Source: Saccharibacter sp. 17.LH.SD (lineage in GTDB: Bacteria > Pseudomonadota > Alphaproteobacteria > Acetobacterales > Acetobacteraceae). From it: DNA of 64,000 nt. A program made the position numbers and the translations under genes. Below the pieces are notes generated by a model. It was given only the letters and a program-made list of their open reading frames with translations. It did no database searches and had not been told where the DNA came from. Shown here in pieces: positions 12,107-38,490 of the stretch (within the stretch, counting starts at the first letter, position 1; each line of letters starts with the position of its first letter). The stretch is taken from contig NZ_WVHO01000010.1 in assembly GCF_009834805.1 (NCBI RefSeq), forward strand, positions 124,001 through 188,000, read 5' to 3'.

Positions 12107-12128
12107 CACGATCGGGAGATTTATACCC

Positions 12129-15035
12129 ATGCAGCATGGCCAGACTACCTCACAAGCCCATCACGCTTTTGATACGTTTCTGCGCCATGCTGGCTTTGAA
12201 GGGGATGTTGGGCGAACACAAGCAGAACGCCTTATTGCCGCAACAGATAACAGCGTTTACCAGCAAATGCCGGCCTTGGTGGTGTATCCACGCCACCACG
12301 ATGACCTGGTGAAAGTTGTCCAAGCTGCGCAGAAGACGCACCTGCCTATAGCCCCACGTGGTGGAGGTACAGGGACAAACGCTCAGTCCCTCACCAGTGG
12401 TGTCATGGTTGATCTCTCTCGTTATATGGACCGCATTATAAGGTTTGACGCAGAGACTGAAACTGTTCGTGTGCAGCCCGGCGTCATTTTGTCGCGTCTC
12501 AATGCCTTCCTCAAACCTTATGGCGTCTTTTTCCCGCCCATGGTCTCCACAGCTAATCGAGCAACGATTGGCGGGATGATTGCCACAGATGCGTCAGGGA
12601 AGGGATCACGCCTTTACGGAAAAACATCCGATTATATTGAACGAATGGATGTTGTTCTATCAGATGGCACCTCTTTTGAAGCACGTCACTTTAGCGCCAA
12701 TGACGTGCCAAAGACCTTAGAAGGAGAGGGGCTGGCTGCCCGGGCTTGCCGAGAAATTTACCGCGTTGTGAGTGAGCAACAGGCTGAAATTGAGCGCGTT
12801 TTCCCTAAGATGAATCGTGGGCTTACGGGCTATAACCTCAAAAATATTCTCATGCCTGATGGCAGCTTTAACCCAACGCGCCTTTTAGCAGGGTCTGAAG
12901 GGACCCTTGCCCTCACCAGCGAAATTGTTTTACGCGTCAAAAAGCTTCCCCGTTACCGACGTCTTCTTGTCATTCGCTATGATGACTTTGACGCAACCTT
13001 GCGCCATGTGCAACAACTTCTTCCCGCCCATCCGCTCGCGATTGAAGTGCTTGATGACCGTTTGCTTGAAACAGCACGCGATGATGTCTCATGGGCGCAA
13101 TTTAAGGATGTTCTTGATGAACAAACGGACCGTCCCGTTCGTGGTATCAATTTTGTAGAATTCGTCGGAGATGATGACCGCCTACTAGCCCAACATATTG
13201 AAGACGCACAAAGTCTCTCTCGCAACGCGCATATCATTGACTGTCATCCAATCGAAGATGCTTCTCTCATCGCTCAGTTATGGGAGCTCCGAGCAAAGGC
13301 GGTCGGGTTGCTTGGTCGGCCTCGTGAAAACAAACAAGGTGTCCCTTTCATTGAGGATACCGCTGTCCCACCAGAAAATCTTGCTGATTATACAGCCGAA
13401 TTTCGCCACATATTAGATGATTATCACCTTGATTACGGCATGTTCGGCCATGCCGATGTCGGGTGCCTTCACGTCCGGCCGTTTCTCAACATGCTCGACC
13501 CGAACGACCAACACCGTATTCGGGCTATTTCAGATAAAGTGGCCCATCTGACACACCGCTATGGTGGGCTTTTATGGGGAGAACACGGGCGCGGGGTGAG
13601 GGGAGAATTTTCTCCGCTTTTCTTTGGTCCAACTCTTTTTGCCGAACTCTGCCACATTAAAAAAGCTTTTGATCCGAAGGACCTTTTTAATCGCGGGAAA
13701 CTTGTTCCTGTAGAAGATCATTCCGTTATAAAAATAGATGAACTTCCTTTCCGTGGTTCGTTCGATAAGCAAATTTCTGCACAGAACAAAGAACATTATG
13801 AAAAAGCCATTCTCTGCAATGGCAATGGCGCCTGTTTTAATCAAGAACCCACCACAACAATGTGCCCGTCTTATAAGGCCACGAAAGACCGTCTCCAATC
13901 ACCCAAAGGGCGGGCTGCTCTTTTACGTGAGTGGCTGCGCCTTTCATCTTTGCCCGACGCACAAACATCACCCGAGAAAAAACAGCTCGGCAAAGCCCTT
14001 AAAAAAACGTTTGATAGCTGCCTCGCTTGTAAAGCGTGTGCCTCTCAATGCCCAATACGTGTCGATATTCCGTCATTACGGTCTCATTTTTTACATGATT
14101 ATTACCATGCTCGTCTGCGCCCATTGCGCGACTATCTCGTTGCCTCTCTGGAGCCCTTACTAAAAATCGGGCGTCTCACCCCAGGGCTTACCAATTTTTT
14201 GATGCATAACCCACTCTCACGCCGTGTTCTCACTGGGGTAGGGCTGGTTGATCTCCCCACGTTACGCCCCACACATTTTCCAACATCTCAACACGTCACA
14301 TCGTCATGGCTCTCTCAACCGTCCGAGAAAAAAATTGTCCTCCTTCAAGATAGCTTCACGGGGAGCTTTGATGGAGGCGTTCTTCATGATGCCTATGCAC
14401 TGTTTGCAAAACTTGGCTATGACATCCGCGTGACGCCTATATTGGATAATGGTAAAGCCCAGCATGTTTTAGGCTTTCGCAGGCTTTTTGCCTCAACGGC
14501 ACGGCATATTCTTTCCGCGTTACAGCCAATAGCCTCTCGTGGAATTCCGATTATCACGTTAGATGCGGCAACGGGCTTGATGTTCCGCCATGAATATCGT
14601 GAGATTGACCCCACGCTTTCGTGGAACGTCCTCGCCCCTGAAGAGTTTCTTCATGCAGAAATTCAGGAAGAGAAGGTCCATTTTTCACCATCCTCTACAC
14701 AAATCGCATCACTCGACTTCCTACCACACTGTACCGCTAAAGCCCTCACACCGGAAACCACAACTCATTGGACACACGTGATGACACATTTCGGGATCGC
14801 TCTGACGAGTAAAGCAACAGGCTGTTGCGGTATGGCCGGTCTTTTCGGCCATGAGCGCAATAATGCCCCTCTCTCTAAGAAAATTTTTCAAGACAATTGG
14901 GAAAATTTTGTCACCAAAACAGTGACAGCTGGCGGCTTCTCGTGCCGGTGCCAAACAAAGCGCTTTACTGGGCAGACATTATTGCACCCCATTCAAGCCC
15001 TTTATCAACATATCCAAAAATCACCCCCAACATAA
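12129..15035 (+). CDS. FAD-linked oxidase / Fe-S protein, YdiJ-type D-2-hydroxyacid dehydrogenase
   Basis: A single-chain fusion of a lactate-dehydrogenase-like flavoprotein and an Fe-S module. The FAD-binding PCMH domain is at about 45-270 (APRGGGTGTNAQ at 77-88), followed by the FAD-oxidase C-terminal domain to about 530 (FGHADVGCLHVRPFLNM). Fe-S ligands are C563, C569 and a CPSY motif, then C631-x2-C634-x2-C637-x3-C641-P. A C-terminal CCG-type segment (TGCCGMAGLFGHE) is near residue 900. At 968 aa it resembles E. coli YdiJ (about 1018 aa), which oxidises D-2-hydroxyglutarate. The substrate here is not shown by the sequence. It lies 22 nt after glmS but is functionally unrelated. Confidence 0.85.
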   Translation: MQHGQTTSQAHHAFDTFLRHAGFEGDVGRTQAERLIAATDNSVYQQMPALVVYPRHHDDLVKVVQAAQKTHLPIAPRGGGTGTNAQSLTSGVMVDLSRYMDRIIRFDAETETVRVQPGVILSRLNAFLKPYGVFFPPMVSTANRATIGGMIATDASGKGSRLYGKTSDYIERMDVVLSDGTSFEARHFSANDVPKTLEGEGLAARACREIYRVVSEQQAEIERVFPKMNRGLTGYNLKNILMPDGSFNPTRLLAGSEGTLALTSEIVLRVKKLPRYRRLLVIRYDDFDATLRHVQQLLPAHPLAIEVLDDRLLETARDDVSWAQFKDVLDEQTDRPVRGINFVEFVGDDDRLLAQHIEDAQSLSRNAHIIDCHPIEDASLIAQLWELRAKAVGLLGRPRENKQGVPFIEDTAVPPENLADYTAEFRHILDDYHLDYGMFGHADVGCLHVRPFLNMLDPNDQHRIRAISDKVAHLTHRYGGLLWGEHGRGVRGEFSPLFFGPTLFAELCHIKKAFDPKDLFNRGKLVPVEDHSVIKIDELPFRGSFDKQISAQNKEHYEKAILCNGNGACFNQEPTTTMCPSYKATKDRLQSPKGRAALLREWLRLSSLPDAQTSPEKKQLGKALKKTFDSCLACKACASQCPIRVDIPSLRSHFLHDYYHARLRPLRDYLVASLEPLLKIGRLTPGLTNFLMHNPLSRRVLTGVGLVDLPTLRPTHFPTSQHVTSSWLSQPSEKKIVLLQDSFTGSFDGGVLHDAYALFAKLGYDIRVTPILDNGKAQHVLGFRRLFASTARHILSALQPIASRGIPIITLDAATGLMFRHEYREIDPTLSWNVLAPEEFLHAEIQEEKVHFSPSSTQIASLDFLPHCTAKALTPETTTHWTHVMTHFGIALTSKATGCCGMAGLFGHERNNAPLSKKIFQDNWENFVTKTVTAGGFSCRCQTKRFTGQTLLHPIQALYQHIQKSPPT

Positions 15036-15160: not shown

Positions 15161-17743
15161 ATGGAAACAGGGCTTGCAGCTATTCTTCTAACGCTGATGT
15201 TCCTGCTTCTTTTGGTTAGTCTCATTCAGCCACTTGCCAAAAAGCTTAAGCTTCCTGACACCGTTCTCATTGCTCTCGTTGGTATTGGTCTAGGTGGAGC
15301 CGCGGCCATCATTACCAATTCGCTGGGGCTAGATCTATTAGAAGGCCCTGCGGAAACCCTCACATCATTTCCTATCAATAGCGAAGGGTTTTTGCTCATT
15401 TTCTTGCCTATCTTGGTTTTCCAAGGAGCAATGAATATCAATGTACGCAGCTTAGCCCATGAGATCGCTACAGTTTTACTCTTGGCCGTTGTGGCTGTCA
15501 TTGCGTCTACGGCCACCATTGGGTTGGCTCTTTTCCCCTTTGCGCAACAAAGCCTCGCTGTCTGTCTTTTGTTGGGAGCGATTGTTGCAACGACGGATCC
15601 TTCTGCTGTTTCGGGTATTTTCCGCGAAATTGGCGCTGCCGCACGCTTAACGCGTTTGGTTGAAGGGGAGGCACTCTTTAACGATGCAGCGGCCATTGCG
15701 ATTTTTAGTATTCTCGCCGCCGCTATCACCGCCCATCACCCTGTCAGCCCACAAGAAGCCATCATAAACTTCCTTACGGAATTTGCAGGCGCTGTCGTCG
15801 TCGGGGTAACCGTTGCTCGCCTGACCCTGTTACTCATTTCAACGATGAGTGGCTTCCCGGCTGCAGAAATAACATTAACCCTTGTTCTGCCTTACGCCGT
15901 TTATATTCTATGTGAAGATGTTCTCGGGTTTTCAGGCGTCGTCGCCACAGCGACAGCAGGGCTTACCGTCTCTGCTTATGGGCCTTCTACATTCCGCCCT
16001 CAAGTTTGGCGCTTTCTGCATGAGTTATGGGAGCAGCTTGTTTTTTGGGCTGGCTCTCTCGTCTTTATCCTCGCTTCGATGCTGGTCCCTCGCATGATGT
16101 TTGGCATGACACGCTGGGACTGTGTTTTAATTTTAATCGCCAGTGTTGCAGGGTTAGTCGCGCGATCAGCCATTATTTTCGGCCTTTTGCCTATTCTCAG
16201 TATCACCCGTTTATCTCCCCCAGTGCCGACCCGTTTCAAAGCGACCATGGCATGGGGTGGACTGCGCGGAGCTATTACGCTTGCTTTGGCTTTAGCGGTT
16301 AATGAAAACCCGTATATTAATGAATCGATTACCCATTTTATCGGGATTGTCGCTACAGGGTTTGTGCTTATTACATTGCTCGTCAATGGCACAACCTTAC
16401 GCTCTTTAGTGCTTTTCTTGCGTCTTAATCGTCTATCTCCCATTGACGAAGCCATACGTCACCAAATTATCGGGATTGGGTTAGGGCACGTTGCTAAACG
16501 TGTTGAACAAGTTTCCGATGAGCTCGGCTTTAACAAACGTACGCGTTATGGTGTCATCAGTCGCATTGAACGACGTGCCGAAAAAGAAAAAGAAGCTAAT
16601 AATTTTGAAGCCGCCTTAACAGATCGAGACCGTGTTCAAATGGCGCTTATTACCATCGCCAACCAGGAACGCTCACTGCTGCTTGATCTCTTCCGTGTGC
16701 AGGGAATGTCAAGCCGACGTGTGATGGAAATCCTCCTCCGCACCGCTGAAGCCTTGGTCGATAGTGTGCAGAGAGAAGGGCGATACGGCTACGTGCGCGT
16801 CAGGAGAAAACGCCTCCAGCCGACCTATCGTTTCCAGATTGCTCAATTTTTACATCGCCATTTCCGGGTCGATCGGCCTCTCATGTTTTGCATGATGGAG
16901 CGTTTTGAAATGCTCATCATCGCCCACCTTGTTTCGACATCTCTAATGCGCTTCGTACGGGAGCGTATGGAACCGACATTAGGAGCACGCATTACCGAAA
17001 TCGTGGCTGAAGTTCTCGGTCGACAACGTAAATTACTTGATGATGCTCTCGAAGCATTACGCCTTCATTATTCTGGTTATTCTGAAGCGTTAGAAAGCCG
17101 TATTCTGCGCCAAATTGCTCTTCGGATGGAAGACGAAGAATATACAACGCTTGCAAAAGAAAATCTCATTTCTCAAGAGCTTCATCGTGAGCTCAACTCT
17201 ACCATTGATCGGCATCGCACACGTTTGGAATCTCCCTTACGCTTTAATTTGCGCAGTGGCATTGAGCAGAGACTCAGAGCATTCCCGGCTTTCAACGGCG
17301 TTCCCGATGCCGCTTTGCATGACTTAGCGGGAAAGGTTTCTATGTGTTTCCTATCCCCAGGGGAAACGCTGATTAAAGCCAATCGGAAAATTCGCACGAT
17401 TTATGCGCAAGTTGCGGGTTTGGTTGAATATCGTTATGAGGATCAAGATATTCAGCTTGGGGCAGGGGATCTTGTCGGAACCATGAGCCTACTCCAAGGC
17501 AATCATGCCCTTGCGACTGTTCATTCTCTCCAATTCTCACATATGCTGGCCATTCCTCGTGATGAATTTGAAAAGCTTATCAAGAAATATCCCATCGTCC
17601 GGCGGCAGGTAATCCAACGCCATCAACAACGGCGGCATGGCTTGCTCGAACCTAGCGTGGTGATTACCAGAACCGGGCATTCCATTCTTCCTGCCCATGA
17701 TGCCGGCTTCATTGTTTCATCTTTATCAGATGATCGTTTTTGA
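15161..17743 (+). CDS. CPA1-family Na+/H+ antiporter with C-terminal cyclic-nucleotide-binding-like domain
   Basis: About twelve hydrophobic segments occupy residues 1-420. They include the CPA1 hallmarks ATTDPSAVSGIF and EGEALFNDAAAI (the ND ion-binding pair) and the MAWGGLRGAITLALALA segment. The basic, helical cytoplasmic tail (about 430-690) ends in a beta-roll domain at about 700-820 (VSMCFLSPGETLIKAN ... LGAGDLVGTMSLLQG) with the fold pattern of CNMP-binding domains. The canonical PBC arginine-containing motif is not evident, so ligand binding is doubtful. The role inferred is Na+(K+)/H+ exchange for pH or salt homeostasis. It is preceded by a 125-nt AT-rich gap and is convergent with the next gene. 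Confidence 0.85.
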   Translation: METGLAAILLTLMFLLLLVSLIQPLAKKLKLPDTVLIALVGIGLGGAAAIITNSLGLDLLEGPAETLTSFPINSEGFLLIFLPILVFQGAMNINVRSLAHEIATVLLLAVVAVIASTATIGLALFPFAQQSLAVCLLLGAIVATTDPSAVSGIFREIGAAARLTRLVEGEALFNDAAAIAIFSILAAAITAHHPVSPQEAIINFLTEFAGAVVVGVTVARLTLLLISTMSGFPAAEITLTLVLPYAVYILCEDVLGFSGVVATATAGLTVSAYGPSTFRPQVWRFLHELWEQLVFWAGSLVFILASMLVPRMMFGMTRWDCVLILIASVAGLVARSAIIFGLLPILSITRLSPPVPTRFKATMAWGGLRGAITLALALAVNENPYINESITHFIGIVATGFVLITLLVNGTTLRSLVLFLRLNRLSPIDEAIRHQIIGIGLGHVAKRVEQVSDELGFNKRTRYGVISRIERRAEKEKEANNFEAALTDRDRVQMALITIANQERSLLLDLFRVQGMSSRRVMEILLRTAEALVDSVQREGRYGYVRVRRKRLQPTYRFQIAQFLHRHFRVDRPLMFCMMERFEMLIIAHLVSTSLMRFVRERMEPTLGARITEIVAEVLGRQRKLLDDALEALRLHYSGYSEALESRILRQIALRMEDEEYTTLAKENLISQELHRELNSTIDRHRTRLESPLRFNLRSGIEQRLRAFPAFNGVPDAALHDLAGKVSMCFLSPGETLIKANRKIRTIYAQVAGLVEYRYEDQDIQLGAGDLVGTMSLLQGNHALATVHSLQFSHMLAIPRDEFEKLIKKYPIVRRQVIQRHQQRRHGLLEPSVVITRTGHSILPAHDAGFIVSSLSDDRF

Positions 17744-27300: not shown

Positions 27301-27304
27301 TTGA
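27233..27304 (+). CDS. Possible 23-codon leader ORF overlapping the acyl-AMP ligase start
   Basis: ATG at 27233 opens a frame of 23 codons (MSLFLFSQGPQRYLVVQTEL...) whose TGA at 27302-27304 overlaps the TTG start at 27301 by two bases. That geometry would allow translational coupling to the downstream ligase, whose own ribosome-binding site is poor. The sequence upstream of this ATG has only a weak GGGG-type site, so the frame may be fortuitous. Confidence 0.3.
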   Translation: MSLFLFSQGPQRYLVVQTELVQV

Positions 27305-29049
27305 CCGAGGCCAACCTAAATACCCAATCCCCCCTTTCCATCACGCCAAGCCGTTCAGGCATTGAACGACGGTATGGGGATTTCCCAACTTTTCCAGCTG
27401 CGCTTGATTATGCAGCGCAAGGAAAGTCAGGGTTCAATATCTATTCCGGTCGTGGCACCCTTATTGAGTCACTGCCCTACAGCACGCTGCGTGTTCAGGC
27501 CCTATCTGTCGCACGCCGTCTTTTGGGACTTGGCCTCACAAAAGGGGATCGCGTTGCCATTGTCGCTGAAAGCGATGGTGACTTTGCGCGCGCCTTTTTC
27601 GGTTGCCAATATGCAGGGCTCGTTCCAGCTCCTCTTCCCCTTCCTGTCGTTTTCGGTGGGAAAGACGACTATATCAAAACCCTTCGAGGCATGATCACCA
27701 GTGCAGGTGCGCGCGCTGTCGTGGTACCTAGCGTTATTGGTGGATGGACAGACCTCATTACTGAAGGTCTTGACCTCCTCTTTGGTGGCTCCCCTACTGA
27801 ACTAATGGAACAGGAAGAGAAAGAGATCGCCTTGCCTGACGTTGGCCCGGACGATCTTTCTTATCTTCAATTTTCATCGGGAAGCACACGCTCTCCAACG
27901 GGCGTATGCATTACCCAAAGAGCTGGTATGGCGAATATCCATAGCATCTCCAAATATGGGCTTTGCGTCTTCCCTTCAGAAGATCCTCGTGTCGATCGTT
28001 GTGTCTCATGGTTGCCGCTTTACCATGATATGGGGCTCGTCGGGTTCTTCCTTACCCCTATGGGATGCCAACTTTCTGTTGATCTTCTCCCAACTAGAGA
28101 GTTTGCACGCCGCCCTCATATCTGGTTAGAACTTATTTCGCGCAATCGTGGAACACTTTCCTACAGCCCCTCTTTTGGCTTTGAACTATGTGTTCGCCGC
28201 GGAGCTCGTGAGGAAATTGACCTTTCCTCCTGGCGTGCTGCAGGAATTGGTGGCGATATGATTCGCCCCCAGATTATGCATCAATTCGCTGAGGCATTCG
28301 CTTGCCGTGGTTTTGATAAACGGGCTTTTGTGGCAAGTTACGGGATGGCAGAAACGACCCTGGCCATCAGCTTTGCGCCTCTGAATGAAGGCATCCACAC
28401 CGATACGGTTGACCTCCGTTACCTAGAAGAGCGCAATTACGCACGCCCTGCTGATGAAAAGACAGAGCCGCGGCGTACTTTTGTCCTTTGCGGTAGGCCT
28501 CTTCCCGAACATGAGATGGAAGTACGCTCCCCGGACGGTAAAATCTTATCTGAGCGCGAAGTTGGCACTATCTTCGTGCGTGGTCCGAGCATTATGTCGG
28601 GATATTTCCAGCGCCCGGATGAGACTGAAAAAGCTCTTTCAGCTAATGGTTGGCTCAATACAGGGGATCTTGGTTATTTCCTTGATGGTCAAATCGTCGT
28701 GACGGGCCGAGCAAAAGACCTCATCATCATCAATGCACGCAATATCCTCCCGCAAGACCTCGAATGGGCAGCGGAACATGAGATGCCCAATGTGCGTTCG
28801 CGCGATGTTGCTGTTTTCTCAGTCGATCACCAAGAAGGTGAAAAAGTCGTTGCTCTCGTTCAGTGTCGCCTCAGCGAAGAAGAGACACGCGCCAAACTAA
28901 AAACTGATCTCACAGCCCTATTCCGCAGGATTCATGGGATTGACGTGGAAGTCACACTTGTTGCGCCACGATCGCTCCCACAAACATCCTCTGGAAAGTT
29001 GACCCGAGCCCGTGCAAAGGCCATGTTCCTAGCTGGAGAATTTAGTTAA
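27301..29049 (+). CDS. Fatty acyl-AMP ligase / acyl-ACP synthetase of the sphingolipid locus
   Basis: Adenylate-forming enzyme (582 aa) of the FAAL type. It activates a fatty acid as acyl-AMP for loading onto the adjacent ACP. Visible motifs are LQFSSGSTRSPTGV near 190-203 (P-loop), SWLPLYHDMGLVGFF near 239, ASYGMAETTLA near 342-352, TGDLGYF near 450, and the A10 lysine in LPQTSSGKLTRA near the C-terminus. The first in-frame start is TTG at 27301: the frame is open to 27208 but contains no ATG, GTG or TTG upstream. It lies first in an operon with ACP and serine palmitoyltransferase, the same trio found in the Caulobacter ceramide cluster. Its role in ceramide acyl supply is inferred from that context. 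Confidence 0.85.
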   Translation: MTEANLNTQSPLSITPSRSGIERRYGDFPTFPAALDYAAQGKSGFNIYSGRGTLIESLPYSTLRVQALSVARRLLGLGLTKGDRVAIVAESDGDFARAFFGCQYAGLVPAPLPLPVVFGGKDDYIKTLRGMITSAGARAVVVPSVIGGWTDLITEGLDLLFGGSPTELMEQEEKEIALPDVGPDDLSYLQFSSGSTRSPTGVCITQRAGMANIHSISKYGLCVFPSEDPRVDRCVSWLPLYHDMGLVGFFLTPMGCQLSVDLLPTREFARRPHIWLELISRNRGTLSYSPSFGFELCVRRGAREEIDLSSWRAAGIGGDMIRPQIMHQFAEAFACRGFDKRAFVASYGMAETTLAISFAPLNEGIHTDTVDLRYLEERNYARPADEKTEPRRTFVLCGRPLPEHEMEVRSPDGKILSEREVGTIFVRGPSIMSGYFQRPDETEKALSANGWLNTGDLGYFLDGQIVVTGRAKDLIIINARNILPQDLEWAAEHEMPNVRSRDVAVFSVDHQEGEKVVALVQCRLSEEETRAKLKTDLTALFRRIHGIDVEVTLVAPRSLPQTSSGKLTRARAKAMFLAGEFS

Positions 29050-29101: not shown

Positions 29102-29356
29102 ATGACTGAAAGTGTTGCCGATATTTCCTCAATCATCATTGAGAAACTTCTGGCTAACCCCAAAGTTCCTCGTAATATCAATGGTGATAGCCGTATTGTG
29201 GAAGATTTGTCTTTTGACAGTTTGGCCGTCATGAATTTTGTCATGGAGATTGAAGACACATTGGATGTCTCTGTTCCACTCGACAAGCTTGCTGATATTC
29301 GTACTATCAATGATCTTGCGCAATGCTTGCACGAGATTAAGGCTGCACAAGCATGA
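29102..29356 (+). CDS. Acyl carrier protein dedicated to sphingolipid synthesis
   Basis: An 84-aa ACP-fold protein with the phosphopantetheine serine in DLSFDSLAVM (S40). It diverges strongly from the housekeeping AcpP at 42.7 kb, which reads [11 protein letters not shown] at the same place, so it is a specialised carrier. It starts at the ATG at 29102, preceded by AAGAG; a GTG eight codons upstream is less likely. Its stop overlaps the serine palmitoyltransferase start as ATGA, implying coupled synthesis. It should receive an acyl group from the preceding ligase and present it to SPT. Confidence 0.9.
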   Translation: MTESVADISSIIIEKLLANPKVPRNINGDSRIVEDLSFDSLAVMNFVMEIEDTLDVSVPLDKLADIRTINDLAQCLHEIKAAQA

Positions 29357-30555
29357 CAGCGGGATTGTTCGACAAACACCAGAATTTACGCACCTCTTAT
29401 GAGGCACTTATAGCGGCAAGCCCTCGCAATCCGTTTGGTGTCGTCATAGAGCGCCCGCTTTCAGCAAGCGTTGGGATCATCGAAGGACGCAAGACGCTTC
29501 TCTTCGGTACCAATAACTATCTTGGACTGAGCCAGTCACAAAAAGCACGTGATGCCGCTATCGAGACTGTTTCGACCATGGGCGTTGGCACCACGGGCTC
29601 GCGTATTGCGAATGGTACCTATTCCCTTCACACCAAGCTGGAAGAACGTCTTTCTCAGGTACTCCAACGGCGCCATACCATGATATTCTCAACAGGATAT
29701 CAAGCTAATCTCGGCACCATCTCCGCTTTGGTCAACAAAGATGATATCCTGTTTCTAGATGCTGACAGCCATGCCAGCATCTACGATGGGGCGCGTCTTT
29801 CTGGAGCGCAGGTTATCCGCTTCCGTCATAATGACCCTGCCGATCTGGATAAACGCCTAGCCCGTACAAAGAACGCATCCGGTGCTCGCCTTGTCATCGT
29901 CGAAGGCATTTATTCCATGACGGGGAATATTGCACCTGTCGATAAATTTGTTGAGGTAACAAAACGCCACAACGTTACCCTTATGGTGGATGAAGCCCAT
30001 TCTTTCGGCGTTATGGGGGACCATGGCCGCGGCGTTGCCGAGATGCAAGGCTGCGAAGATGGCGTTGATTTCGTCGTAGGGACTTTTTCCAAATCGCTTG
30101 GAACCGTTGGTGGCTATTGCGCGACCAATCATGATGAGATCGCTCTTATGCGCCTCTGCTCGCGCCCTTATATGTTTACAGCGTCTCTCCCCCCTGAAAT
30201 CATCGCCTCAACCCTCGCTGCTTTAGAAGAAATTCAAGCGCGCCCTGAATTACGTGAAAAATTAAGAGAAAATTCAGAACGCTTGCATCAAGGGCTTAAG
30301 AAAAGTGGTCTCAGCACAGGAGATTTTGTCTCCCCAGTCGTTGCTGTGACGTTAGAAGATGTCCCTCAGGCTCTCACCTTCTGGAATGCTCTTCTCGAGG
30401 CCGGCGTTTACGTCAATCTTTCTCTTCCACCGGCAACGCCAGACAACCGTCCACTCCTGCGTTGTTCTGTGATGGCAGCTCACTCTGCAGAAGAGATTGA
30501 TCAAGCCGTTGCCGCCTTCACAGACATTGCCAAAAAACTCGGCCTCACGGCTTAA
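29353..30555 (+). CDS. spt: Serine palmitoyltransferase (alpha-oxoamine synthase family)
   Basis: PLP enzyme that condenses L-serine with a long-chain acyl thioester to give 3-ketodihydrosphingosine, the first step of ceramide synthesis. The 400-aa soluble single-chain form is typical of bacteria. Key residues: H140 in DADSHASIYD (stacks on PLP), the D213-E214-A215-H216 motif, and the Schiff-base lysine K247 in GTFSKSLGT. The GTTGSRIANGT segment near 80-90 is family-wide. The related KBL and AONS enzymes share these residues, but its placement behind a dedicated ligase and ACP makes SPT by far the best call. Confidence 0.92.
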   Translation: MTAGLFDKHQNLRTSYEALIAASPRNPFGVVIERPLSASVGIIEGRKTLLFGTNNYLGLSQSQKARDAAIETVSTMGVGTTGSRIANGTYSLHTKLEERLSQVLQRRHTMIFSTGYQANLGTISALVNKDDILFLDADSHASIYDGARLSGAQVIRFRHNDPADLDKRLARTKNASGARLVIVEGIYSMTGNIAPVDKFVEVTKRHNVTLMVDEAHSFGVMGDHGRGVAEMQGCEDGVDFVVGTFSKSLGTVGGYCATNHDEIALMRLCSRPYMFTASLPPEIIASTLAALEEIQARPELREKLRENSERLHQGLKKSGLSTGDFVSPVVAVTLEDVPQALTFWNALLEAGVYVNLSLPPATPDNRPLLRCSVMAAHSAEEIDQAVAAFTDIAKKLGLTA

Positions 30556-30559
30556 GACT

Positions 30560-30605
30560 GAATACCTTCTCTCCTATGGAGGGAAGGTATTCTAAGAAGT
30601 TTTTA
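30560..30605 (+). terminator. Rho-independent terminator after spt
   Basis: GAATACCTTC at 30560-30569 pairs with GAAGGTATTC at 30583-30592; TCTC and GGAG extend the stem around a small loop. The sequence TAAGAAGTTTTT follows. It ends the plus-strand trio and overlaps the stop of the convergent gene, so it may act in both directions. Confidence 0.75.
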
Positions 30606-31538
30606 TTGACGCACTGACTTAAGCCGTCGGGCTTGCCAGAGAAATATAGGAAGCCCAAGAAGAGGGTGACGCTCTACAAAAGGAGGAACTCTGACTTCCT
30701 CTCCTGTATGACGTCGAATTTTCCACAGAAGGTAACGCATACCTCCCCTAAAAGTGAATGCCGCCTTCAAAAGACGCATCACATTCAAAGGACGTCCAAT
30801 TCTCTTAACGCGTGCCCAACGGGATTTTGCCTTTTCCCGTAATGCCGGGCTCAATTGCGGCTGAAATGTATCGCCAATGACCGAGACATGAATCGCTTCT
30901 TTTTTCCATGCGGCGAGTAACAGAACCGCATAACGCTCCTCATGCCCGGCTAATAAATCATGGCTGCGTTTCTTTTTCTCAACACGCAATTCCGCTTCAT
31001 ATGTATGCTGGAAAAGCGTGTGCCAATAATCTTCCGGCTCACCAGAGTAAGGCCCTAAGAGAGCCGCCCAACGGGCCGCCGTGACTACACATTGTTGAAT
31101 CGCTGACAAAATGCGATCTGCACTTTTCTCGTCTTTCACCCAAACAAGACGCACAGGCTGACAAAAACGTGCCCAAATGGTTGTATCTAATGATTGCAGA
31201 CGACTACGCTTCAAAAATTGTGCAAGCGATAGAACCGCCACCTTTGCACGAAGCAACTGTCCCTCATGTTCATATTCACAATAATACACATTGGGTGGGA
31301 GAAAAGCGTTCGCCATACGCTCCATTACATGATGGGAAAAAGACGTATTTTCCTCGGTAATGACGTATAAATCGAGAATACCATTTGGATCCCTATGCCG
31401 CAACACTGAGCCGTAAAAAACAATACCTAATGGCATAACCGGCATGATGCTTGATAGATACTGAGCAAAAGCGACAACAGCCGCGTCAGTTTCCGTCGTC
31501 AATTCACGAATTAAAATCGTCCTCATGAAATCAGGCAT
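30603..31538 (-). CDS. Tam41-like (mitochondrial-type) CTP:lipid-phosphate cytidylyltransferase
   Basis: This 311-aa protein has no signal peptide or clear membrane span. Its pattern matches Tam41/Mmp37, the peripheral CDP-diacylglycerol synthase of mitochondria. The nucleotidyltransferase core is FYGSVLR at 41-47 with ILDLYVI at 54-60 (D56, metal site), where human TAMM41 has YGSGVY and MLDFVF. Further matches are WARFCQPVRLVWV at 122-134 (family: GRxQKPVKI), VVTAARW at 151-157, and AELRV at 182-186 (family: GDFRM). I recognise this from memory of the family, not from a search. It overlaps the lipid-kinase gene upstream by 8 nt, so kinase and cytidylyltransferase are coupled. The inferred reaction is lipid phosphate + CTP to CDP-lipid, possibly CDP-ceramide or CDP-diacylglycerol. 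Confidence 0.65.
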   Translation of the reverse strand: MPDFMRTILIRELTTETDAAVVAFAQYLSSIMPVMPLGIVFYGSVLRHRDPNGILDLYVITEENTSFSHHVMERMANAFLPPNVYYCEYEHEGQLLRAKVAVLSLAQFLKRSRLQSLDTTIWARFCQPVRLVWVKDEKSADRILSAIQQCVVTAARWAALLGPYSGEPEDYWHTLFQHTYEAELRVEKKKRSHDLLAGHEERYAVLLLAAWKKEAIHVSVIGDTFQPQLSPALREKAKSRWARVKRIGRPLNVMRLLKAAFTFRGGMRYLLWKIRRHTGEEVRVPPFVERHPLLGLPIFLWQARRLKSVRQ

Positions 31539-32505
31539 GTAGAAACCGGAAGACTGGCCCCCGCTCCAAAATCATTGTCGCCTCAGGGAGTGCAGGAAAA
31601 ACCTCACCATCAAGCACAAAATCACTGTCCGTTGCCAACCGCATCCGCTCTGTTTGGCTACTCACATAATCACTATTTTGTCGTAACCATTGTGGTGCAC
31701 GTCCACGCAATAAATTCCCTAATGCAGCGGGGAAACGGCTGGGAAACGCATTAACATCAATAAAATGAAAGCCGTCTTGGTTATTCTTCTCATCCCAAAA
31801 AGGCCAAATACCACGCGATAGTTTCTCAAGAGCGGTCACGAGAAAAAAGAAGCTCTGCCCATCTCGAACAAGCATTCCCTCTTTTTGCAACGCTTGCCAG
31901 TGCAGCCTATTACCCCGCAACCACGAATGCCGGCTCCGCGGGAAAATTAGACTTAACAAACTCGTTGCTACTGTGATGATAACCGCAAGATCATGCGGTG
32001 CAAAACGCAGTACTGTTGGAGAATGAGCAATATGTACAGCACGAGCATAACCCGTACATCCCCCGAACATGCCTAATATCGAGGGCCGTGTACCCTCAGG
32101 CCAGGAAAGGCGGATAGGGCTTCTCTCACTGATGCGAAATACTTTTCCACCTACCAAACGCTCTATCGCCGCAGCCCCACGCAAACCGAATCCGACATCT
32201 CCCGCAATAAGATTTGTATTGCCAGACGGCAGTACAGCAATTGCAGGTAATTTATCTTCAGGATAGACAGAAGCAATCGCCGTTAAACACGCACTGACCG
32301 TGCCATCACCACCATTAATAGCAATCGCATCAACATTGCGTTCTGCTAGACTGGCAATATGGCCCCGCAAATGCGCATCATGCTGAGAGCTGATACAAAA
32401 CTCTCCCAGCTTTTCTCGGGCGAAAGCCAAAGATTTGTCACCATCTTGCTGATTGCGCCTGCTATTGGGATTATGGAGAAAGGCTGGTTGCGCGATTTTA
32501 GTCAA
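31531..32505 (-). CDS. DAGK-catalytic-domain lipid kinase (diacylglycerol/sphingosine/ceramide kinase family)
   Basis: A 324-aa protein of the diacylglycerol kinase superfamily. The N-terminal nucleotide-binding domain has HNPNSRRN at 11-18 and the hallmark NGGDGTV at 64-70; AVLPSGNTNLIAGD follows near 97. The C-terminal half is the beta-sandwich typical of YegS/LCB5-type kinases, ending in the FVLDGEVF region. Substrates in this family are diacylglycerol, sphingoid bases or ceramide. Its place in a ceramide locus, next to a Tam41-like enzyme, favours a sphingolipid substrate by inference. It is divergent from the phosphoesterase gene. Confidence 0.85.
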   Translation of the reverse strand: MTKIAQPAFLHNPNSRRNQQDGDKSLAFAREKLGEFCISSQHDAHLRGHIASLAERNVDAIAINGGDGTVSACLTAIASVYPEDKLPAIAVLPSGNTNLIAGDVGFGLRGAAAIERLVGGKVFRISERSPIRLSWPEGTRPSILGMFGGCTGYARAVHIAHSPTVLRFAPHDLAVIITVATSLLSLIFPRSRHSWLRGNRLHWQALQKEGMLVRDGQSFFFLVTALEKLSRGIWPFWDEKNNQDGFHFIDVNAFPSRFPAALGNLLRGRAPQWLRQNSDYVSSQTERMRLATDSDFVLDGEVFPALPEATMILERGPVFRFLHA

Positions 32506-32661
32506 TGTTTTGCCATAATAAACTATCTCGCCGAAAGACAGACTGCCTTTCAGTCATTCCAAAACTAGTAAGACCGCTCTAACATAGCTATAGTGCCGGG
32601 GCCAGTGAGGAAGCACCTTCCCTGGCGGAATATTCGTTCGCTGTCTCTATTTCGGAACAAT

Positions 32662-33576
32662 ATGTCATTGGACCACATCGCTGATTTTCACACATCCCGT
32701 TATGGCCAACCCGTTAGCTTGGCTCATTTATCTGATCCACATTTGCCACCTCCCCGTCTTCGGTGGACATCTCTTTTCTTCAACAAAAGGCTCCTGAGCT
32801 TTTTACTCTGGAAAACCCAAAGAAGACTCGCTCATTTATCTTCTGTTAACCAGCAATTGCTAGAAAAAATTCGCTCTCATGGGAATATTGCCGCCACATT
32901 AGTCAGTGGTGACATCACCAATTTCGGTACCTATGAAGAATATCAGTCATCTCAACATTGGCTCAAGAAACTTCCAGAACCTGCTATTGTCGTTCCAGGC
33001 AATCACGATATTATGGTTGCCATACCGCCAGAAAAAAGCCTCCATTTGTGGGGAGAGTGGTGCGATGACGTCTTCCCATTTGTACGTGTTATTGATCACG
33101 TTGCCATTATCGGTTTGAATTCGGCCATCCCAACGCCTCTCTTTACCGCTTATGGATGTTTAAAGAAGCGCCAGCTCGCAAAATTAGAAACCCTTCTTGA
33201 TGTCTTGGGCAAAGAGGGCTACTGCCGAGTAATTATGATTCATCACCCCCCCAAGAAAGGTCTTTTACCCCTCCGTAAATCATTTCTGGGGACAAAAGCC
33301 TTCGCACGTGTTTTACAACGAAAAGGTGCTGAAATTGTCCTCCATGGACACTCTCACAATGCAACGATAAACACGATTGAGGGGACGAAAATACCGCTCG
33401 TCGGGGTTGGTGCAGCGTCCCTTAAAAGTGACCATCCACAGAAAGAAGCGAGCTGGAATCATCTTCTTTTGACCCCAAAAGAGCATAACTGGCATATTGC
33501 CCTAACACGCCAGAACTATAAAGGGCAGGTCATGGAAACAAGAGAATGGGTTGCCCCCATAAGGGATGATAGATGA
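32662..33576 (+). CDS. Calcineurin-like metallophosphoesterase
   Basis: A 304-aa cytoplasmic phosphoesterase with all five metal motifs: HLSDPHL (D25, H27), SGDITNFG, PGNHDIM, MIHHPPKKG and LHGHSHN. The start is placed at 32662, where GGAACA precedes the ATG; a GTG 23 codons upstream is possible. It overlaps the next gene (LptF-like) by 4 nt, so it opens a five-gene plus-strand operon. Relatives hydrolyse phosphomono- or diesters of nucleotides or lipids (for example UDP-diacylglucosamine or CDP-lipids). A lipid-phosphate substrate fits the neighbourhood but is not proven by sequence. Confidence 0.82.
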   Translation: MSLDHIADFHTSRYGQPVSLAHLSDPHLPPPRLRWTSLFFNKRLLSFLLWKTQRRLAHLSSVNQQLLEKIRSHGNIAATLVSGDITNFGTYEEYQSSQHWLKKLPEPAIVVPGNHDIMVAIPPEKSLHLWGEWCDDVFPFVRVIDHVAIIGLNSAIPTPLFTAYGCLKKRQLAKLETLLDVLGKEGYCRVIMIHHPPKKGLLPLRKSFLGTKAFARVLQRKGAEIVLHGHSHNATINTIEGTKIPLVGVGAASLKSDHPQKEASWNHLLLTPKEHNWHIALTRQNYKGQVMETREWVAPIRDDR

Positions 33577-34727
33577 GGAGCGCCTTACCCACACTGGACC
33601 GTTATCTTCTCCATCAGTTGATTCCGCCCTTCAGTGTCACACTTGCGACCATGCTTATTGCTCTCTTGCTTGAGCGCCTTCTGATTATTTTTAATCATTT
33701 GGCTAATGCAGGCAGTTCGCTCGCTACTCTTGTTACACTCTTAACGGACTTGCTCCCTCATTATATGGGGCTTGCTCTTCCCGCAGCTCTCTGTATTGCC
33801 GTTTTCCTCACGATTAATCGTATGAGTGAGCAAAATGAGATTGATGCCCTATGCGCAGGACATATTTCCCTCCTCCGCATCGCTCTGCCTTATATTAAGG
33901 TCGGCTTGGCCTTGGGGGCTCTAAGCGTTTTTCTCTATGGCTATATCCACCCCATTGCCCGCTATGATTATCGGGAAGGCTTTTATTTTGCCCGCCATAC
34001 CGGATGGGCTCCCCATCTGCAATCCGGCATGTTCGCTGTTACCTCCAACAGAACAATGATTACGGCCGATAAGGTCGATCGCGGGGGATCACAGTTAAGC
34101 CATGTTTTTATCCGTGACATAAAAGCAGATGGAACCATCCAAATTATTACGGCACCTCAAGGGGTTTTAACGATTTCCGAACAAACAACTTCCACAGAAC
34201 TTGATTTATGGAACGGCCAAATCGTTACAACACACCATCCCGACACCCCAGGTAGCGAGGCGACCGTAACGCACTTTGATCATATCACACGCCTCATTGA
34301 ACGTGCGAAAAAACGCGCCCAATTCCGCGCCCGTGGAGATGATGAAGAAGAACTCACTCTTTTCGAGCTTGCCCATGCTCTCAAATTTGGTTCTCCTAAC
34401 CTGCCTTATAAGGTCCTCCGCGCAGAACTCGATTTCCGTTTTGCTCGTGCTTTAGCTATCCCCTTCATTCCACTCCTTACGATCGCTCTTGCCGTTGGTA
34501 GAAAACGACGTCGGTCCGCATTAAAACAAATTCTTCTCGCTCTTATTCTTGTTGGTTTTGATGAAACACTTCTATTTGGTCACAGCCTCGCGGCAGAAGG
34601 AACCTTCCCTGTATGGCTTTCCATTTGGGTCCCGGAGAGTATTTTCTGCGCCTGTTGTGTCGCTGCTCTTCTAATGCGTACACAAATTTCGTGGAATCTG
34701 AAGAAAAAGTCGGTGGCTAAAGGATAA
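33573..34727 (+). CDS. LptF-like permease (YjgP/YjgQ family)
   Basis: A 384-aa inner-membrane protein with the LptF/G build: three N-terminal transmembrane segments (about 20-40, 60-85, 100-125), a periplasmic beta-jellyroll domain (about 135-270), and three C-terminal segments (about 295-375). The N-terminus LDRYLLHQLIPPF and the cytoplasmic FLTINRMSEQNEIDALCAGHISLLRI coupling region are characteristic. It overlaps the phosphoesterase by 4 nt and precedes an LptG-like partner by 11 nt. LptF and LptG extract lipopolysaccharide with the ATPase LptB. Here neither lptB nor lptD is beside them, so the pair could be the housekeeping LPS permease or a paralogue for sphingolipids. Confidence 0.82.
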   Translation: MRSALPTLDRYLLHQLIPPFSVTLATMLIALLLERLLIIFNHLANAGSSLATLVTLLTDLLPHYMGLALPAALCIAVFLTINRMSEQNEIDALCAGHISLLRIALPYIKVGLALGALSVFLYGYIHPIARYDYREGFYFARHTGWAPHLQSGMFAVTSNRTMITADKVDRGGSQLSHVFIRDIKADGTIQIITAPQGVLTISEQTTSTELDLWNGQIVTTHHPDTPGSEATVTHFDHITRLIERAKKRAQFRARGDDEEELTLFELAHALKFGSPNLPYKVLRAELDFRFARALAIPFIPLLTIALAVGRKRRRSALKQILLALILVGFDETLLFGHSLAAEGTFPVWLSIWVPESIFCACCVAALLMRTQISWNLKKKSVAKG

Positions 34728-34738
34728 TATTCATCGTC

Positions 34739-35839
34739 ATGTCCTTCTCTCTCCCAGCGCGCACATTATCCTATTTCTTTCTTAAACCACTTCTTGTGCG
34801 GATCCTTCTATGCTGTGCTGTTCTGACAGCACTGTTGGAGATTCTTGCGTTACTCGAAGAAGCTTCGACGATCCTATCACGTCATCTGGGGATAAGCGGA
34901 CTGCTGCACTTTAGTCTTTTACATCTCCCCACACTCATAACAGAGATTATGCCGCTATCGGTCATGATCGGCTCGCTCCTCACACTTTTACCCATGACAT
35001 TATCCAGTGAGATCTCTGTTATACATGCCGCCGGCCTCTCAACCCTCGGTATGTATAAACATATTCTCCCCGCTCCTCTGCTCATCGGTGTTATCACTAT
35101 GGTGATACAGTTTTGGGTCGTTCCACCTTGTGAACAAGCTCTTAATATCTGGTGGAATATAACCGCAACACAAGTGAATGACCAAGACGCCTTCCCAAAT
35201 GTTTGGTTTCGCCAAGGCGGTAATATCTCCCATATCGGTAAAGTAAGCGCTGGGGGCTATACGCTCAGTGATATTACAATCTATCAGCGCCGTCCCTCTG
35301 ACGGCATACTCCTCCGCACGGAGCATTTCCCAGCTCTTCAGGCAACAAAAAATGGTTGGCAAGCCGCCCCCAATGCCTTGGAAATATCCATTGATAGCAC
35401 TCAAACAAAAGGCCGGTTGAAAAATTACTCTGGCCCCATTCCTCTTTCAGCCACGCCACGTCAAATTATCAATATGACCGTCGCCAATGCGGCCTATACC
35501 CCAAGTCAAATATGGTCTGTTCTTGTTGGAGAATCGCCTGCCAGTCTTCCGGTATCAAATTACCTCATGTCATTTTTCTTAGGTCTTTTTTTACCCTTAC
35601 AAATGGCTGTAATGGTTCTCATTACCCTACCTGTTACCTATATACCTCCACGAGCGGGGTTGCGAAATCCTCTCCCTGTGTATGTGATGGGGGCTGGGTT
35701 AGGTATAGTTATTCTTCAGGGAATGATTTCTGCCCTAGGAAATGCGGGGTCATTACCGGTGTTACTCGCGGTCTGCTCGGGCCAAGTGATCGCAATTCTA
35801 CTTAGCCTAACGTGGATTTTGCGAATGGAGGAGAAATGA
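34739..35839 (+). CDS. LptG-like permease (YjgP/YjgQ family)
   Basis: A 366-aa partner of the preceding gene with the same six-helix plus periplasmic-domain architecture. TLSYFFLKPLLVRILL opens helix 1. ITEIMPLSVMIGSLLTLLPM lies near residue 63, and the cytoplasmic EISVIHAAGLSTLGMYKHIL carries the conserved coupling segment that contacts the ATPase (consensus E-[IL]-xAxxAxGxS). The jellyroll has the FPNVWFRQGGNISHIG strand. The stop overlaps the start of the hydroxylase gene as ATGA, which physically links transport to lipid modification. Confidence 0.82.
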   Translation: MSFSLPARTLSYFFLKPLLVRILLCCAVLTALLEILALLEEASTILSRHLGISGLLHFSLLHLPTLITEIMPLSVMIGSLLTLLPMTLSSEISVIHAAGLSTLGMYKHILPAPLLIGVITMVIQFWVVPPCEQALNIWWNITATQVNDQDAFPNVWFRQGGNISHIGKVSAGGYTLSDITIYQRRPSDGILLRTEHFPALQATKNGWQAAPNALEISIDSTQTKGRLKNYSGPIPLSATPRQIINMTVANAAYTPSQIWSVLVGESPASLPVSNYLMSFFLGLFLPLQMAVMVLITLPVTYIPPRAGLRNPLPVYVMGAGLGIVILQGMISALGNAGSLPVLLAVCSGQVIAILLSLTWILRMEEK

Positions 35840-36642
35840 GTAGTTTGAAAAATATTCTTAGTAGCACGCCTCTTATTAGAAAGGGGCGAAGTTACGATCT
35901 CGGTAAAATGAACCTTAAGCAATTATGGGCAGCTTATCTTACCTACCCGTCGATTTTGCTCTATTTTGCCCTCATTATTATCTCGGCCGTCTTAAGCCTT
36001 AAACTAAGCCATAATATATGGCTTACACTGATCCCCATTCCGGTGATCGTAGCTGTTTACCCAACGGCCTGGTATTTAATTCACCGCTATATCCTGCATG
36101 GGCGCTGGTTCTACCGCAATCCCATCACGGCTTCTATGTGGAAACGTATCCATTTTGATCACCATCAAGACCCCCATCTTTTGGAAGTTCTCTTCGGATC
36201 TCCCCTAAATACGGTTCCGACGATGATGGTCATTACCATGCCGATCGGTGCCCTCATCGGTGGTTGGGGTGGCGCACTCTCAGCCCTAGCAACCGCCTTG
36301 GTCATGACGTGTATTTATGAATTTTTCCATTGCATCCAGCATTTAGCTTATAAGCCACGCTGGCAGTGGGTTGTGTATATTAAACAACTTCACGTCCTAC
36401 ACCATTTCCATGATGAAGATGGAAATTACGGCATTACAAACTATTTGCCGGATCGCCTTCTCGGCACATTCTATCGCGAAGCCAAAGAACGCCCACGCAG
36501 TCCTTACGTCTTTAATCTAGGTTATACGATTGAGGAAGCAGATCGTTATCCATGGGTTATGAAACGCACAGGTTCCCCGCCACGTGACCGGCCTGATCCA
36601 GCCCGCGCCCCTAAAAAGGAAGAGTTAGCGAAACGCGCATGA
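35836..36642 (+). CDS. Fatty acid hydroxylase superfamily membrane enzyme
   Basis: Membrane di-iron hydroxylase of 268 aa with the histidine boxes HRYILH (near 80), RIHFDHHQDPH (near 107), FFHCIQHLAY (near 162) and QLHVLHHFH (near 183). Four hydrophobic segments flank them. The family includes sphingolipid fatty-acid 2-hydroxylases and sphinganine hydroxylases. Acetic acid bacteria are known to contain 2-hydroxypalmitoyl-sphinganine ceramide, which makes a ceramide acyl-chain hydroxylase a reasonable inference. The start at 35836, behind GGAGGAGAA, overlaps the LptG-like stop by 4 nt; the next gene again overlaps by 4 nt. Confidence 0.85.
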   Translation: MSSLKNILSSTPLIRKGRSYDLGKMNLKQLWAAYLTYPSILLYFALIIISAVLSLKLSHNIWLTLIPIPVIVAVYPTAWYLIHRYILHGRWFYRNPITASMWKRIHFDHHQDPHLLEVLFGSPLNTVPTMMVITMPIGALIGGWGGALSALATALVMTCIYEFFHCIQHLAYKPRWQWVVYIKQLHVLHHFHDEDGNYGITNYLPDRLLGTFYREAKERPRSPYVFNLGYTIEEADRYPWVMKRTGSPPRDRPDPARAPKKEELAKRA

Positions 36643-37394
36643 CCCTCCCCGTGCTTATCTTAGCAGGATCACGTGATGGTGAACGTGATCCTCTTGCTCG
36701 CGCTGGACGCGTCTCTCACAAGGCTGTTCTCCCCATTCATGGGGTCCCCATGATTGAACGTGTGGTGCACGCTCTTGAAACTGTTCCGTCCCTTGGTCCG
36801 ATTTGGGTCAGTATTGAAAAACCTGATTGTCTCGCTTTTTTGGGGTCACGTATCCGCATCATTCCCGCCGCATCTTCACCAAGCGAGAGCGTCTCTAAAG
36901 CTTTAGAGACCATAGGGACACCCTGCCTCATTACCACGGCAGACCATGCTTTGTTACACCCAGAATGGATCTCGGAATTTTTAGAGGCAAGCAATGCAAG
37001 CGATGTCGATCTGACGGCTGCCATCGCCTCATCCGCTGTTATTGAGCGTGATGTACCGCAGACACAGCGTACCTATATTCGCCTTGCTGACCTCTCCTTT
37101 TCGGGATGTAATCTCTTTTTCCTACGTTCTAACAACGCCCAAAATGTTGTTGCTTTCTGGCGAGTGCTCCAAAAAAATCGTAAACATCCCGTGCGTATGG
37201 CTTTTACATTTGGGTTGGGTACTTTAGTGCGTTTTCTGTTCCGTCGCCTCCGCAAATGCGACGTTGAAGCACGTATTCACACGCTCACTGGCGCCAGGGT
37301 CGCCCTCATTCCACTCTCCGACGGACGAGCCGCTGTTGACGTCGATAAAATTTCTGACTTGAAACTTGTTCAATCTCTGCTAGCGGCTCATTGA
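36639..37394 (+). CDS. GT-A fold nucleotidyltransferase (MobA-like NTP transferase)
   Basis: A 251-aa protein whose N-terminus LPVLILAGSRDGERDPLA, followed by HKAVLPIHGVPMIERV at about 28-43, is the nucleotide-binding loop of GT-A nucleotidyltransferases. TTADHALLHPEW near 98-109 supplies the metal-binding Asp. A basic hydrophobic stretch near 180-208 (FTFGLGTLVRFLFRRLRK) may touch the membrane. It is the last gene of the MPE-LptF-LptG-hydroxylase operon, overlapping the hydroxylase as ATGA. Relatives activate sugars, inositol phosphate or molybdopterin. Here it could make a nucleotide-activated head group, but the substrate is unknown. Confidence 0.72.
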   Translation: MTLPVLILAGSRDGERDPLARAGRVSHKAVLPIHGVPMIERVVHALETVPSLGPIWVSIEKPDCLAFLGSRIRIIPAASSPSESVSKALETIGTPCLITTADHALLHPEWISEFLEASNASDVDLTAAIASSAVIERDVPQTQRTYIRLADLSFSGCNLFFLRSNNAQNVVAFWRVLQKNRKHPVRMAFTFGLGTLVRFLFRRLRKCDVEARIHTLTGARVALIPLSDGRAAVDVDKISDLKLVQSLLAAH

Positions 37395-37479: not shown

Positions 37480-38370
37480 TCACTTAACGCCCAAACGCCG
37501 CTTCAACGAAAAAAGTAATGGCTTCAAAGAATAATGTATCTTCTTTAAGTCAATTAACGTCACATCCCCGGCTGCAGAAAGTGTGTGCATCCCATCAGGG
37601 AACTCCCTTGCCAAACGGCTGGAGGCTATGAGAGACGGCCCTGCCACAAGACGCGGGCGCCCGTGGCCAAACTCATGAAACTGGAGGAAACGAATTCCCC
37701 CGCCATAAGTGCGGCTGCAATCTTGAACTGGTAAAACAACCTTATCATCAATAACGAGCGGAGTACCACCTGGCCGTGCTCCTGTTGGGTCCACAAGTAT
37801 ACAGCCCATATCAGACCAAGCCCCTGTGAGCTCTTCCGCTAATGCAAGATGGAGGGCACTTTGCCGGTAAGCCTTAGGGGTTGGCGGTGTCCAAAATAAC
37901 CACCAGCGACCTGCATGATAAAGAGGGGTTGCATCAATCGCGCCAATGGGGAAATCAAATTGTGAAACACGTTCCCACGTAAATGGAAAATCCACAGCAC
38001 GATAAAGAGACAGCCGACCGGATTTATACCCCTCCGGCAGCATATAAACCTCTCCTTGATGTTCAAAAACATAAGGATACGACAAATGCCATTTCTCTTT
38101 TAAAACCGTTTTACGTTCAAGTAATTGAAAAAAACGATCGTAAATGAAAACCTCTATCTCACCTTTTGCGGTTCGATAATCGTATAGTTCTGCAAAAATA
38201 TAGAGTTTTTCATCGCGCCATAATCCAAAAGGATCTGCTAAAAAACGCCCATCCCCTGCATCAGGTAGGAAACTAATCTCGACATCTTCTAGAGAATGAC
38301 TCTGAACAATGGACTTGAGAGGAGCATGTAAGATTGCACACTGCCACATATCCATATCAAGAAAGGACAT
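37480..38370 (-). CDS. GINT1 N-terminal-domain-like beta-propeller protein
   Basis: A 296-aa protein without signal peptide or transmembrane helix. It contains FLADPFGLW (43-51), KLYIFAE, GEIEVF, KWHLSYPYVF (93-102), GEVYMLPE (106-113), SLYRAVDFPF (121-130), RWWLFW, RPGGTPLV and QDCSRTYGG. These match, in the same order, the beta-propeller-like N-terminal domain of plant GINT1, glucosamine inositolphosphorylceramide transferase (FVADPFL, WHLSYPFVF, GEVYMMPES, LYRAIKFP). The glycosyltransferase domain of GINT1 is absent. I recall the resemblance from memory; no search was run. The start is the ATG at 38370, preceded by GGAGG; a TTG five codons upstream is weaker. Its position beside a ceramide locus supports a role in sphingolipid head-group work, by inference. 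Confidence 0.65.
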   Translation of the reverse strand: MSFLDMDMWQCAILHAPLKSIVQSHSLEDVEISFLPDAGDGRFLADPFGLWRDEKLYIFAELYDYRTAKGEIEVFIYDRFFQLLERKTVLKEKWHLSYPYVFEHQGEVYMLPEGYKSGRLSLYRAVDFPFTWERVSQFDFPIGAIDATPLYHAGRWWLFWTPPTPKAYRQSALHLALAEELTGAWSDMGCILVDPTGARPGGTPLVIDDKVVLPVQDCSRTYGGGIRFLQFHEFGHGRPRLVAGPSLIASSRLAREFPDGMHTLSAAGDVTLIDLKKIHYSLKPLLFSLKRRLGVK

Positions 38371-38490
38371 AATAAAAGCCTCCAATTAAGCAGCCACGAT
38401 CCTGCCCTGATCATCTACTAGATAGCTCTCAGTGTCACCATTATGAAATACTCATTTCCCATTTCATGAATAATAAGGAAATTATGTCAC

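Follow-up and report, generated by a model that had tools for sequence, protein, structure and literature searches.

Phosphosphingolipids help Caulobacter cells survive without lipopolysaccharide. In Caulobacter crescentus, the serine palmitoyltransferase gene spt (CC_1162) is followed by CC_1161 (cpgC), CC_1160 (cpgB, coding for the ceramide kinase), CC_1159 (cpgA) and the phosphoesterase gene CC_1158, and then by the genes for LptF2 and LptG2, cerS, the CofC-like gene CC_1153 and CC_1152 (cpgD). The product of CC_1160 is a proven ceramide kinase that also phosphorylates diacylglycerol in vitro, and deletion of the kinase gene leaves PA levels unchanged (PMC10331486). CpgC is genetically required after CpgB for the formation of ceramide phosphoglycerate: a CC_1161 mutant makes neither CPG nor CPG2, and its ceramide is moderately raised. 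CpgD makes CDP-glycerate, a compound that is dispensable for CPG. Olea-Ozuna and colleagues reported in 2024 that CC_1161 has a CDP-diacylglycerol (CDP-DAG)-synthase-like InterPro domain and might form an NDP-activated ceramide (PMC11324152), and a preprint of May 2026 still attributes the CpgC step after ceramide-1-phosphate to an unidentified mechanism (PMC13228409). The central idea, an activated ceramide made by CpgC, is already in print and thus not new; the term CDP-ceramide was found in no paper of the literature searched.

The second system to which CpgC can be compared is Tam41 (TAMM41), the mitochondrial CDP-DAG synthase, with structures from Schizosaccharomyces pombe (6ig4, 6ig2). 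Of the three acidic residues that the nucleotidyltransferase fold normally carries, Tam41 is reported to retain a single one (PMC11646218).

The ceramide locus around cpgC

In the window, i.e., the whole stretch of 64,000 nucleotides analyzed here, the gene set around cpgC identifies a ceramide locus by its sequence content (Table 1). This setting, proposed by the first-pass annotation of the DNA, was borne out by the genes for the acyl-AMP ligase, the acyl carrier protein and serine palmitoyltransferase. The cpgC open reading frame starts with ATG and encodes 311 residues, among which the motifs FYGSVLR, ILDLYVI, WARFCQPVRLVWV, VVTAARW and AELRV follow each other in the order initially described. 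The lipid kinase gene cpgB, with its GGDGT motif, is its upstream neighbor on that strand; the 8-nt overlap of the two genes (31531-31538) had likewise been read correctly. Elsewhere, the genome encodes a homologue of ceramide synthase (33% identity, E = 2.2e-59). Judged by its related sequences, the window belongs with the acetic acid bacteria, close to Bombella, Saccharibacter and Gluconobacter.

Table 1. Genes of the sphingolipid locus, with positions in the window
Feature	Position	Strand	Basis
Fatty acyl-AMP ligase (aasR type)	27301..29049	+	NCBIfam NF006624, 865 bits
Specialized acyl carrier protein (acpR type), overlapping the spt start	29102..29356	+	PF00550, 42.3 bits
Serine palmitoyltransferase (spt)	29353..30555	+	NF047599 equivalog, 600 bits (cut-off 500)
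cpgC: Tam41-fold nucleotidyltransferase, putative CTP:ceramide-1-phosphate cytidylyltransferase	30603..31538	-	Structure, homologues and invariant residues
cpgB: DAGK_cat lipid kinase, ceramide-kinase (CpgB) type	31531..32505	-	DAGK_cat, 49.2 bits; GGDGT
Metallophosphoesterase, position of Caulobacter CC_1158	32593..33576	+	PF00149
LptF-family permease (lptF2 of sphingolipid locus)	33573..34727	+	PF03739, LptF
LptG-family permease (lptG2)	34739..35839	+	PF03739, LptG
Fatty acid hydroxylase family protein, probable ceramide hydroxylase	35812..36642	+	PF04116
MobA/CofC-like NTP transferase, probable counterpart of Caulobacter CC_1153	36639..37394	+	PF12804, weak CofC

The order spt, cpgC, cpgB, phosphoesterase, LptF, LptG and CofC-like gene is that of Caulobacter. 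As in C. crescentus, cpgC comes after spt and adjoins cpgB, in the company of genes for an acyl-AMP ligase, an acyl carrier protein, a metallophosphoesterase and LptF/LptG. The position between spt and cpgB recurs in most related loci, and the metallophosphoesterase gene was present in all 80 loci from acetic acid bacteria. The CofC-like gene follows cerS in related loci, one of which (L141) reproduces the published Caulobacter order as far as the CofC-like gene, where the stretch ends, with additional genes between lptG2 and cerS. cpgC is thus a real, well-conserved gene that had been correctly recognized, and by context it is the orthologue of a known pathway gene. Because the gene order matches, and given the co-occurrence described below, we very probably deal with the orthologue of C. 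crescentus CpgC (CC_1161, CCNA_01219).

The two bacteria differ in that the window locus contains no CpgA-like gene and that the only CDP-alcohol phosphotransferases in the genome are PgsA- and PssA-like. For this reason, the final lipid of this bacterium is probably not CPG2.

Predicted fold and conserved residues of CpgC

We modeled CpgC with AlphaFold2 using 21 homologues, which yielded a structure with a mean pLDDT of 89.1 and a pTM of 0.87. Tam41 accounted for the five best Foldseek matches to the model, with structures from S. pombe and, bound to CTP-Mg, from a Firmicutes bacterium (E = 6.9e-8 for 6ig4 and 8.9e-8 for 7ecd, the CTP-Mg complex). VIA-align superposed the model on 7ecd, its best structural match, with Z = 17.4 and an rmsd of 3.3 over 231 residues, and on 6ig4 with Z = 15.9 and an rmsd of 3.9 over 219 residues. 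The match spans the nucleotidyltransferase domain and the helical (winged-helix) domain that follows it, whereas the next family, the aminoglycoside nucleotidyltransferases (ANT(4'')), reached Z = 7.3 over approximately 113 residues. Tam41 is therefore the best match among solved structures in the structure comparison, a check that had been suggested with the first description of the gene.

At the sequence level, CpgC shares 12 to 14% identity with 7ecd or S. pombe Tam41 in structural alignments. The window protein did not match PF09139, the Pfam family of Tam41, even at E = 1, nor PF01148 (CTP_transf_1, the CdsA family), and a single-sequence search of NCBIfam returned nothing for Tam41. phmmer found no match in the PDB at E values up to 10, and a profile hmmsearch of the PDB retrieved only a marginal nucleotidyltransferase. 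Among the homologues, by comparison, one (L122) scored 28.8 bits with PF09139, above the cut-off of 24, and two others fell slightly under it (L128, 23.1 bits; L160, 21.8 bits). In a profile comparison by hhalign, with two Tam41 cores as the template, E was 3.3e-4 but the probability no higher than 38%; the Tam41 chains had been retrieved from the PDB with a consensus-like query, and later comparisons used real chain sequences only. Weak matches to DUF488 (18.8 bits, under the cut-off) were taken as chance and discarded. Based on the model, we class CpgC as a Tam41-fold protein and a distant relative of Tam41, and not as a member of PF09139 because the window protein fails the Pfam cut-off. 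The likeness to Tam41 claimed at first pass thus holds for the fold; the profile search proposed there was negative for the window protein and positive for one homologue.

Residues Y42, G43, D56, P81, P82, K99, W122, R124, Q127, P128, E183, R185 and E187 are invariant in all 31 aligned homologues, and S44 is present in 30 of them. The invariance or near-invariance of the motifs in these homologues, together with the predicted Tam41 fold, argues that their occurrence is not due to chance. In the hhalign alignment, from which we took the residue equivalences from D56 onward, the Tam41 cores have D, K, R, P, D and R where CpgC has D56, K99, R124, P128, E183 and R185. CpgC thus presents a reduced Tam41 active-site pattern, composed of GS, one Asp, the Lys of KYG, the Arg and Pro of RFQKP and an acidic-x-Arg element, and it shares with S. 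pombe Tam41 the positions of the single catalytic-type Asp, the Lys and the Arg-x-x-Lys/Gln-Pro. The Asp whose loss in homologues had been named as a possible objection is retained in 31/31 of them, as one Asp and not two: the second position after D56 is occupied by Y, C or F, leaving a single acidic residue at the site.

In addition to its low identity with S. pombe Tam41, CpgC is set apart by its sphingolipid context and by a C-terminal block of its own, KAAFTFxxGxxYxxWKIxRHxG, whose residues K258, T262, F263, Y269, K273 and H277 are invariant in the 31 homologues. The region of residues ~230 to 311 is basic and highly conserved; Tam41 has a basic amphipathic membrane-binding segment at its C terminus, a part that is missing from the solved S. 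pombe structure. Judging from this sequence, the block may function in membrane binding or ceramide recognition.

The gene had also been thought to bear on the bacterial origin of mitochondrial Tam41, a notion that the comparison did not support. The core of the Firmicutes Tam41 (7ecd) is 46% identical to that of S. pombe, close to the mitochondrial enzyme, as CpgC is not. On these identities (12 to 14% against 46%), the argument that would make CpgC the bacterial source of mitochondrial Tam41 was rejected, and CpgC appears as a distant cousin rather than the nearest bacterial relative. Six-frame scans with PF09139, run on two genome sets (289 alphaproteobacteria and 398 Pseudomonadota), gave no match above the cut-off and one sub-threshold match per set, both of them CpgC homologues; as the scan missed L122, which passes as a protein, these absences are not proof.

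Co-occurrence of CpgC with sphingolipid genes

CpgC was found in 34 of the 289 alphaproteobacterial genomes of our sample, spread over 21 families. Serine palmitoyltransferase is present in 40 genomes, including all 34 with CpgC, and none of the 249 genomes lacking it has CpgC (Fisher p = 1.8e-38, uncorrected for relatedness). A CpgB-specific kinase profile (E up to 1e-30) matched exactly the same 34 genomes, which confirmed the coupling to the lipid kinase that had been suspected from the overlap. In 95 of the 96 loci that show both genes, cpgB is directly upstream of cpgC on the same strand, and in the 96th a gap of 211 bp separates them. In five of the 34 genomes, some of them with fragmented assemblies, cpgB and cpgC are both kept although they sit on different contigs. 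Such co-occurrence and linkage are predicted by a kinase-to-cytidylyltransferase relay acting on a sphingolipid and not by a housekeeping CDP-DAG synthase.

In six genomes (G071, G124, G137, G203, G304 and G338), serine palmitoyltransferase is present while CpgB and CpgC are both missing, and presumably these bacteria have no phosphosphingolipid of the CpgB/CpgC type. The sphingolipid cluster of Escherichia coli BL21(DE3) (L162, 22835-31843), which includes genes for an acyl-AMP ligase, an epimerase, an acyl carrier protein, serine palmitoyltransferase and LptFG-like proteins as in a similar locus, contains no cpgC and no annotated lipid kinase.

Proposed reaction, alternatives and head-group transfer

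Our results on the fold, the residue pattern, the gene neighborhood and the exact joint occurrence with the kinase and serine palmitoyltransferase are best explained if CpgC is a Tam41-fold CTP:ceramide-1-phosphate cytidylyltransferase that makes CDP-ceramide, a reading to which we assign a probability of roughly 0.6. CpgC would then be a peripheral enzyme of the bacterial phosphosphingolipid pathway. CpgB would convert ceramide to ceramide-1-phosphate, the reaction shown for Caulobacter; CpgC would bind CTP between its two domains, nucleotidyltransferase and winged-helix, and transfer CMP to ceramide-1-phosphate, yielding CDP-ceramide and pyrophosphate; and a putative CDP-alcohol phosphotransferase would exchange the CMP of CDP-ceramide for the head-group alcohol. 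Orthology with CC_1161, CTP as the donor, ceramide-1-phosphate as the acceptor and CDP-ceramide as the product are inferences, the first of them from gene order. The acceptor, and even the nucleotide, could differ from those of Tam41 because the identity is only 12 to 14%. The relay toward CDP-ceramide put forward at first pass thus stands as the best explanation, without novelty in view of the similar published proposal of an NDP-activated ceramide (PMC11324152).

In another conceivable activation step, CpgC would use CTP or another NTP to activate a different phosphate, e.g., a phosphorylated head-group precursor, and the head group would then pass to ceramide or ceramide-1-phosphate. Against this speak the full-length structural match to lipid-phosphate cytidylyltransferases, not small-molecule ones, and the strict coupling to a kinase that provides a phosphorylated lipid. 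We regard this possibility as unlikely, though it draws on the many acceptors of nucleotidyltransferase folds, on a published scheme in which CpgC turns ceramide-1-phosphate into CPG by an unidentified mechanism (PMC13228409), and on our finding no dedicated transferase for CDP-ceramide in this genome. The CDP-glycerate of Caulobacter, however, already comes from CpgD, and CPG does not require it.

The search for cdsA that the first-pass annotation recommended showed that the genome carries an ordinary one, separate from cpgC. A second CDP-DAG synthase is therefore not needed, and a CDP-DAG role for CpgC would be redundant. That CpgB makes phosphatidate and CpgC converts it to CDP-DAG for ordinary phospholipids is thus very improbable, even though the fold relatives of CpgC are CDP-DAG synthases and the Caulobacter kinase phosphorylates diacylglycerol in vitro (PMC10331486): CpgC is absent from 249/249 sampled alphaproteobacteria without serine palmitoyltransferase, PA is unchanged upon deletion of the kinase gene in Caulobacter (PMC10331486), and the loss seen in the CC_1161 mutant is specific to phosphosphingolipids. 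It is barely credible that CpgC is a plain nucleotidyltransferase (aminoglycoside or MNT type) with no lipid function, as the common core that gives ANT(4'') its Z of 7.3 matches the N-terminal domain only, whereas Tam41 covers 219 to 231 residues at Z = 16 to 17, and CpgC is strictly linked to, and co-occurs with, sphingolipid genes.

If CDP-ceramide is the product of CpgC, sphingolipid head groups would be added in these bacteria by the logic of CDP-DAG-dependent phospholipid synthesis. We would give even odds to the broader proposition that a Tam41-type enzyme was recruited to the head-group branch of bacterial sphingolipids, run like that synthesis via CDP-ceramide, with PssA, PgsA or another transferase consuming CDP-ceramide in acetic acid bacteria. 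Through the likeness in structure and the strict link to the kinase, the step after ceramide-1-phosphate becomes directly testable.

The weak point of a CDP-ceramide pathway is its last step, head-group transfer. A CpgA-like gene occurs in none of the 80 acetic-acid-bacterial loci, and CpgA-like proteins are encoded in 6 of the 20 loci of a class-wide sample. The only PF01066 proteins of the genome resemble PgsA and PssA, and a search of the genome for a CpgA-like transferase gave only a weak match, to the PssA-like protein. This leaves three cases: PssA or PgsA accepts CDP-ceramide, there is an unrecognized transferase, or the function of CpgC is a different one.

Several genes in and around such loci deserve mention in this context. 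Besides a CpgA-like gene at 11512-12630, the sphingolipid locus L141 encodes a second CDP-alcohol phosphatidyltransferase at 16126-17337, which is a candidate transferase for CDP-ceramide; matches to this protein occur in 6 of the 20 loci, some of them being the CpgA-like gene itself. The MobA/CofC-like NTP transferase gene (36639-37394) is kept in 77 of the 80 acetic-acid-bacterial loci even though CpgA is missing there. Downstream of it in the window, the gene at 37480-38385 codes for a GINT1_N domain, the N-terminal domain of the plant glucosamine inositolphosphorylceramide transferase (112.6 bits). Such a gene accompanies 34 of the 80 acetic-acid-bacterial loci, and its product could glycosylate a sphingolipid head group. 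Lastly, the fatty acid hydroxylase family gene (35812-36642) is present in 79 of the 80 acetic-acid-bacterial loci and in 17 of 20 other cpgC loci, and its product is a candidate for a ceramide hydroxylase other than the DesA-type enzyme described for Caulobacter.
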